From Anaerobacillus sp. CMMVII (GTDB lineage Bacteria; Bacillota; Bacilli; Bacillales; Anaerobacillaceae): a stretch of DNA of 64,000 nucleotides. This document shows, piece after piece, positions 53,110 through 53,821 of this stretch. The notes beneath the pieces were generated by a model. It made no database searches. It had not been told where the DNA came from and was given only the letters and a program-made list of their open reading frames with translations. Where the stretch lies: NCBI RefSeq assembly GCF_025377685.1, contig NZ_JACEHK010000001.1, positions 248,001-312,000 on the forward strand, read 5' to 3'. Numbering within the stretch: the stretch's first letter is position 1; each line of letters opens with the position of its first letter. Made by a program: the position numbers and the translations under genes.

Positions 53110-53238
53110 GGAGGATTAGCTCAGCGACGAGCGAAGCATCCTTGGATTAACGTCGAGTTGTTTCGACGCATATGCATCTTAGTGTTACTGGAAGAGGAAG
53201 AAACAGGGTCTTCCTAGAATAGACTTCATCAATACTTC
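53110..53238 (+). other. Element 1: duplicated tRNA-Val 5' end joined to a 114-bp repeat element
   Basis: Bases 53110-53124 repeat the first 15 nt of the following tRNA-Val (GGAGGATTAGCTCAG). They are followed, in place of the rest of the tRNA, by 114 bp with blocks CGACGAGC, CGAGTTGTTTCGACGCAT and AGAGGAAGAAACAGGGTCT. The same blocks occur in element 2 (53664-53821). A hairpin GGAAGA/TCTTCC (53190-53195 with 53209-53214) encloses a 13-nt loop. The true tRNA-Val starts at 53239. Function and mechanism are unknown. Confidence 0.75.
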
Positions 53239-53314
53239 GGAGGATTAGCTCAGCTGGGAGAGCACCTGCCTTACAAGCAGGGGGTCGGCGGTTCGAACCC
53301 GTCATCCTCCACCA
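53239..53314 (+). tRNA. tRNA-Val (TAC)
   Basis: 76 nt, acceptor GGAGGAT/ATCCTCC, anticodon TAC, encoded CCA. Its first 15 nt are duplicated at 53110. Confidence 0.95.
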
Positions 53315-53329
53315 TATTACTAATAAGAT

Positions 53330-53405
53330 GGACCCGTGGTGTAGCGGTTAACATGCCTGCCTGTCACGCAGGAGATCGCCGGTTCGATCCCGGTCGGGTC
53401 CGCCA
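53330..53405 (+). tRNA. tRNA-Asp (GTC)
   Basis: 76 nt, acceptor GGACCCG/CGGGTCC, anticodon GTC, encoded CCA. Confidence 0.95.
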
Positions 53406-53424
53406 TCTTTACTAAATGAAAAAT

Positions 53425-53508
53425 GCGGGTGTGGCGGAATTGGCAGACGCGCTAGACTTAGGATCTAGTGTCTTTGACGTGGGGGTTCGAGTCCCTTCAC
53501 CCGCACCA
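53425..53508 (+). tRNA. tRNA-Leu (TAG)
   Basis: 84 nt class II tRNA, acceptor GCGGGTG/CACCCGC, anticodon TAG, encoded CCA. Confidence 0.95.
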
Positions 53509-53558
53509 TTTTTTATTTTAACGGCAAAAAGAACTTCATTGTCTACTGTTTATATTAT

Positions 53559-53641
53559 GCGGTCGTGGCGGAATGGCAGACGCGCTAGCTTGAGGGGCTA
53601 GTGGGGGTATCCCCGTGGAGGTTCGAGTCCTCTCGACCGCA
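53559..53641 (+). tRNA. tRNA-Leu (GAG), no encoded CCA
   Basis: 83 nt class II tRNA, acceptor GCGGTCG/CGACCGC, anticodon loop TTGAGGG with anticodon GAG. The 3' end reads A then TTG, so unlike its neighbours CCA must be added by enzyme. Confidence 0.93.
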
Positions 53642-53663
53642 TTGCTTCATTAAAATACAACAT

Positions 53664-53821
53664 GCGCCCTTAGCTCAGCGACGAGCAAAACGTCGTCGGA
53701 TAAGCTGCGAGTTGTTTCGACGCATTAGCTTCGAAGGCAATACGGGTAGAGGAAGAAACAGGGTCTACGGAGCGTTACTTCGTCCGTAATCATCATGAAT
53801 AACATCATTGAAATACAACAT
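53664..53821 (+). other. Element 2: duplicated tRNA-Arg 5' end joined to a related repeat element
   Basis: Bases 53664-53678 repeat the first 15 nt of the following tRNA-Arg (GCGCCCTTAGCTCAG), and the upstream flank (TTCATTAAAATACAACAT) is also repeated nearly exactly before the true tRNA. In between are about 143 bp with the blocks of element 1 at the same spacing (29 bp and 39-40 bp). The hairpin GTAGA/TCTAC (53746-53750 with 53764-53768) has the same 13-nt loop as element 1. One stem pair changes from A-T to T-A, which is compensatory. Confidence 0.75.

Follow-up and report, generated by a model that had tools for sequence, protein, structure and literature searches.

The window, that is, the whole stretch of 64,000 nucleotides from Anaerobacillus sp. 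CMMVII that was analyzed, contains an array of 11 tRNA genes with two rRNA operons downstream, the second of which runs off the window end. Within this array, tRNA-Val and tRNA-Arg(ACG) are preceded by the same order of features, namely an orphan 5′ fragment of that very gene, a constant element that we refer to as E, and a variable tail, after which the intact gene follows (Table 1). The gap between the end of E and the intact gene is 33 nt at the Val copy and 61 nt at the Arg copy, and the duplication extends into the leader by 0 and 11 nt, respectively. A core pattern of E, written after the family had been seen, gave 2 matches in the window and 0 in 100 shuffles. Misassembly of the array is unlikely, since the identical arrangement was found again in many other assemblies.

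Table 1. Features at the two E copies of the window. R1 denotes the covariance model described in the text; its match coordinates take in two flanking columns besides E.
Feature	Position in window	Strand	Remarks
Orphan tRNA-Val 5′ fragment	53110..53126	+	nt 1-16 identical to gene; nt 17 G, T in gene
E copy 1, 79 nt, ACGAGC...GAAACA	53127..53205	+	R1 match G000:C1:301127-301207, 82.3 bits
Variable tail, Val copy	53206..53238	+	starts with GGG, as in nt 18-20 of tRNA-Val
Intact tRNA-Val(TAC)	53239..53314	+	
11-nt leader piece	53653..53663	+	recurs at 53811-53821 before intact tRNA-Arg
Orphan tRNA-Arg 5′ fragment	53664..53680	+	nt 1-16 identical to gene; nt 17 G, T in gene
E copy 2, 80 nt	53681..53760	+	R1 match G000:C1:301681-301762, 82.8 bits
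Variable tail and leader, Arg copy	53761..53821	+	CATCRTCCGTAA-like module (CTTCGTCCGTAA at this copy)
Intact tRNA-Arg(ACG)	53822..53898	+	

An earlier note on this DNA had described the two elements together with the doubled tRNA 5′ ends and two shared blocks, and all of these are present in the sequence. The boundaries needed revision. The duplication is real, and its length is not 15 nt: it comprises 16 identical nucleotides and a 17th that differs. Because this 17th nucleotide is G in the fragments and T in the genes, the constant part was taken to begin with ACGAGC after nt 17 and not, as proposed, with CGACGAGC after nt 15. Likewise, the elements of 114 and 143 bp each hold a constant E that ends in ...AAACA (at 53205 and 53760), the remainder being variable tail.

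Two other features were observed in the neighborhood. Immediately upstream of the tRNA array, at about 52226-52693, lies a frame that by eye resembles a SprT-type zinc protein. Between tRNA-Arg and tRNA-Pro (53929-53963), there is another short hairpin repeat (GCGACGAGC...GCGCAGGAGC), which also occurs in other spacers of the genus, and a similar repeat in two Evansella loci (L165 and L139) bears tandem E copies after CAGGAGCA.

Further copies exist in other genomes. Within the order, a covariance model built from 106 E cores (R1) matched 140 of 299 genomes and 71 of 116 genera. These counts are lower bounds, since scoring stopped at 15 candidates per genome and weak matches are lost in filtering. 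Presence is patchy, with no R1 match in the other 159 genomes of the order, and none was found in G002, which is of the same genus as the window genome. In a phylum-wide sample of 299 genomes, R1 matched the window's own genome only. That genome gave ten strong matches, a truncated one (45.9 bits), and a weak one (28.5 bits), and it carries a tandem E pair before another tRNA-Val; the one-contig genome G269 holds at least 15 copies. Scanning named genomes with the pattern yielded at least 119 stretches, and among the matches listed most were from Bacillales and some from other phyla look like chance. The plasmids with E were two Anoxybacillus records (L184 and L185, Anoxybacillus amylolyticus plasmids), whose tRNA gene arrays have E units before Thr, Lys, Asn, and Met genes. 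Thirteen stretches of viral contigs matched, at least three of them with E at tRNAs (L171, L172, and L182), and phage records gave no E match at E-values up to 0.001. No description recognized as element E was met in the literature covered, from which subscription journals are mostly absent.

The arrangement at tRNA genes was analyzed for copies lying at most 160 nt upstream of an intact tRNA on the same strand, with fragments sought at lengths of 10 to 45 nt. In this set, E was directly preceded by a 5′ fragment matching the intact tRNA that comes next in 97 distinct copies, compared with 8 copies (not made unique) without a fragment. Eleven kinds of tRNA, defined by amino acid and anticodon group, were hit, and only 5′ parts were found among the fragments sought up to nt 45. 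Fragments were 12, 14 to 15, 17 to 18, 24 to 27, or 30 to 31 nt long: the length was 31 nt in 29 of 30 Gly copies, 14 nt in 16 of 19 Met copies, and 17 nt in 9 of 14 Lys copies, the last value being found also in Val, Ala, Asn, and Asp copies. The insertion point was preceded in the gene by AGNN in 95 of the 97 copies, with the remaining two off by one base. A model of E alone returned 30 loci, and each of the 29 examined had at least one copy preceding an intact tRNA together with the 5′ fragment of that tRNA. The orphan fragments in loci brought in by E were followed by an E core in 110 of 118 cases and by apparent variant elements, differing in stem sequence, in the other 8. Units from fragment to gene were mostly shorter than 200 bp, and tandem arrays of them occur, for example, eight units of 155 bp before tRNA-Phe (L221).

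Fragment and gene were exactly identical in 61 of the 97 copies, and mismatches affected 12 of 97 last positions versus 36 of 2004 inner positions. Behind E, 87 of 97 copies resumed the tRNA sequence by 1 nt or more (mean, 2.25 nt versus 0.46 nt with other tRNA types), 32 of these 87 resumptions being of 1 nt only and mostly at Gly. The duplication has a precise right edge and a variable left edge: it reached into the leader by 0 to 13 nt in 85 of 97 copies and further in 12, and the leader match averaged 8.0 nt versus 1.44 nt between genomes. Of 49 places, 27 have a tail module following E, and the other 22 tails look unrelated by eye. Two readings of the tail were rejected. Taken as a decayed tRNA remainder, it shows no similarity beyond the first nucleotides (mean z, 0.03; 9 of 97 above 2), and pairing as an antisense guide against the target is not general (4.62 versus 4.51 nt), with Gly alone being higher (5.23 versus 4.30 nt).

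In a tree of the elements, which had few columns, few resolved forks, and one starred branch, the tRNA kinds were mixed (47 changes); Gly copies clustered (12 changes versus 23.5 in shuffles), and most other kinds did not. With copies from the same genome and kind left out, the nearest relative of 51 of 160 tRNA-placed copies was one at the same kind of tRNA in another genome. Copies at different tRNA kinds within one genome were at most 91% identical among those fetched, a level at which no recent jumps are apparent. At another locus (L009, about 1435-1613, on G000:C10), a truncated E is joined to a tRNA-Cys remnant-like sequence upstream of an intact tRNA-Arg, which suggests a deletion.

Away from tRNA genes, E was found as well: 77 of 219 distinct core hits lay more than 1.5 kb from any tRNA, a number that includes a few chance matches. 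AGNN, in which only two of four bases are fixed, preceded 48 of the 70 such distinct copies with a recognizable start, as against 95 of 97 at tRNAs, and the 22 misses include some misplaced starts or chance matches. Two genomes, G031 and G183, contain an unrelated intergenic repeat about 100 bp long, and among its listed copies 18 were filled with E and 11 were empty. The sites of E in this repeat were CAGCG or CAGCA (12 copies), TAGCA (2), CAGCT (2), and two non-AGNN places (L263 and L266), and no target duplication was seen there when filled and empty copies were compared. Both flanks were kept in four CAGCG/CAGCA copies of G183 and two TAGCA copies of G031, and the right flank was shortened in 10 of the 18 filled repeats, comprising eight CAGCG copies of G031 without about 28 bp and both CAGCT copies. 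We take the filled and empty repeats as evidence that E is a unit with the ends A...CA. The repeat itself (L245-L274), which has dozens of matches per genome and bears E in part of its copies, is possibly mobile. Regarding the site-specific element at the D-arm put forward in the earlier note, which was to leave the tRNA intact, the site preference and the intact tRNA agree with our data, and the range of targets is broader than proposed, with non-tRNA sites included.

Two alternative explanations were considered. According to one, an integrative unit of about 130 bp, made up of E, tail, leader, and tRNA 5′ part, would integrate inside the tRNA gene and supply a new 5′ half, in a mirror image of the islands that restore tRNA 3′ ends. 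It is this combination that the tandem arrays repeat, and the fragments, besides being so often identical to the gene, track local gene variants (e.g., GCGCTC or GCGCCC in both copies of an Arg unit); however, such a unit is too short to hold an integrase gene, a separate one would be needed for each tRNA kind, and E alone occurs at non-tRNA sites. We regard this explanation as improbable. The other invokes a retroelement and target-primed reverse transcription, where nicking close to the 5′ end of the tRNA, combined with cleavage behind AGNN, would produce a duplication of variable length. While the precise right edge and the variable left edge are in line with this, the reverse transcriptase family searched, RVT_1, was absent from 5 of the 14 element-bearing genomes tested (G031, G183, G154, G125, and G151; a 15th genome, G002, has no E), which renders the route less likely, and no duplication is visible at the non-tRNA sites of E. 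A retroelement thus appears very improbable.

Alignment of 106 copies gave a length of 74 to 83 nt for E, from ACGAGC to GRRRCA, with constant ends (A...CA). Two adjacent stems with ten pairs (columns 1-5 with 30-34 and columns 35-43 with 78-86) were read from the same alignment on which covariation was scored: the ten pairs form in 99.2% of cells versus 92.4% in shuffles, and there are 101 double-change cells versus 31.6 in shuffles and at most 25 in slid controls. The second stem has three variable pairs, and these took the first three ranks by mutual information. The first stem seems less secure, because its pair 2-33 ranked sixth and its pair 5-30 only 22nd (7 double-change cells in this stem). 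The hairpin with a 13-nt loop reported earlier can be drawn in both window copies, but 58.8% of its cells were paired in 20 family members versus 57.5% in shuffles, and the compensatory A-T to T-A change belongs to this hairpin, which the family does not support. Other pairs of E do covary.

The earlier reading of the elements as a selected RNA is open to doubt, because the window copies fold no better than shuffles (z, +0.64 and +0.32) and few wobbles occur: at the three variable pairs, UG was seen in 3 of 318 cells. When copy 1 was folded along with its fragment and tail, z was −1.52. Folded DNA fits at least as well as a selected RNA does. Covariance models of Rfam 15 gave nothing over the window copies at the gathering threshold and nothing listed over E at six other loci with E-values up to 5. 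An integron attC site was considered and dismissed: attC sites have GTTRRRY and RYYYAAC boxes, and those of E read TTGYYYC and GRRRCA, with the conserved part, by eye, outside rather than inside.

An RNA module in the service of the host is a further explanation, in which fragment, E, and tail would be transcribed as part of the tRNA operon and would regulate or assist the processing of the tRNA that follows, with spread by recombination between arrays. It would account for the retention of the E-plus-tail module in the Arg units of the genus over several species, for an Arg fragment whose nt 1-16 equal those of its own gene in all 6 rows showing the fragment (of 7 aligned rows), for the scarcity of mismatches at inner fragment positions, and for the recurrent tail module. 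The genomes of the order without a match, G002 among them, the core hits far from any tRNA, and the folding of the window copies speak against it, and we deem it unlikely.

We incline to the view that one bacterial order harbors, in E, a small non-autonomous mobile DNA element. It can be regarded as a discrete insertion unit because copies at tRNAs follow AGNN and because filled and empty repeat copies coexist without target duplication. Perhaps E moves as folded single-stranded DNA. In such a scheme, the two stems of the folded single strand would hold both E ends side by side where insertion takes place, and an enzyme acting in trans would link E to the target, preferably after AGNN. At tRNA genes, insertion might, less certainly, go along with duplication of the leader and the 5′ part of the tRNA, for example, if synthesis switched templates and left the filled strand for the empty one, whereby a working gene would be rebuilt behind E; tandem units would arise afterwards through ordinary recombination. 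Counting against this view, simple insertion explains neither why, with fragments sought up to nt 45, only tRNA 5′ parts were found to be hit nor why the rest of the tRNA is lost, and it leaves the tail unaccounted for; the doubling may alternatively stem from a mobile piece that, at tRNAs, is the whole tandem-repeating unit. As to the enzyme for a mobile E, none of those tested was always present, and Y1_Tnp (E-values up to 1e-5) was missing in 20 of the 140 element-bearing genomes, including G269. No autonomous E was recognized in the retrieved loci, where four half-pairs 0.6 to 4.5 kb apart enclose genes that look ordinary by eye.

Elements of the IS200/IS605 type move as single strands, insert directly 3′ of a short motif without target duplication, and have hairpins near both ends. 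Non-autonomous derivatives of these elements resemble E in several respects: there is no target duplication in the filled and empty repeats, and at tRNAs the gene sequence continues across E, though its 5′ part is doubled; the short motif just 5′ of E, which is less regular away from tRNAs, may be a counterpart of theirs, and hairpins are near both ends; pairing links the right end with a stretch on the 5′ side of the right hairpin; and Y1_Tnp occurs in 120 of 140 element-bearing versus 98 of 159 other genomes, a comparison made by eye with kinship ignored. In contrast, E has longer pairing and a looser motif, no transposase relative with E ends was found, and one-seventh of the element-bearing genomes (20/140) do without Y1_Tnp. 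With REP/REPIN sequences and their RAYT proteins, E shares the character of short palindromic intergenic repeats. RAYT-like genes were detected in 10 of 12 genomes tested (as we read the weaker matches), but E does not lie beside those examined, being absent within about 1.5 kb from 19 of 29 loci of the RAYT search, 18 of which have a RAYT-like frame, and its layout is one of two different adjacent stems. Genomic islands that integrate at tRNAs likewise keep a whole tRNA gene beside a partial duplicate, whereas E units are about 130 to 160 bp, have no integrase, and double the 5′ rather than the 3′ part. BOX- and RUP-type pneumococcal repeats (PMC3049150) are small and interspersed; E is also short, non-coding, and interspersed, but it follows the 5′ fragment of a tRNA and is itself followed by an intact tRNA. 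This arrangement points to an undescribed small mobile element able to settle in tRNA genes while an intact gene copy stays.

A bolder proposal, which we put forward tentatively and hold to be rather doubtful, is that E represents a new kind of element, a folded single-strand dumbbell that would enter tRNA gene loops after AGNN and trigger copying of the leader and 5′ part, so that a whole tRNA gene is restored behind every new insertion. If this were true, the dumbbell would have found a harmless and repeatable niche through which it spread across a whole bacterial order. As a mobile element in general, E would give a well-studied order an abundant, so far unnamed family that lives in essential tRNA genes with less than 100 bp and no enzyme of its own, and the orphan tRNA 5′ ends in tRNA arrays would be explained.

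At six loci (L035, L048, L057, L070, L134, and L154), elements occupy the same tRNA positions with a second stem apparently different in sequence or length (ACATC/GATGT in L154), and given these variant stems, a wider superfamily may exist around E.
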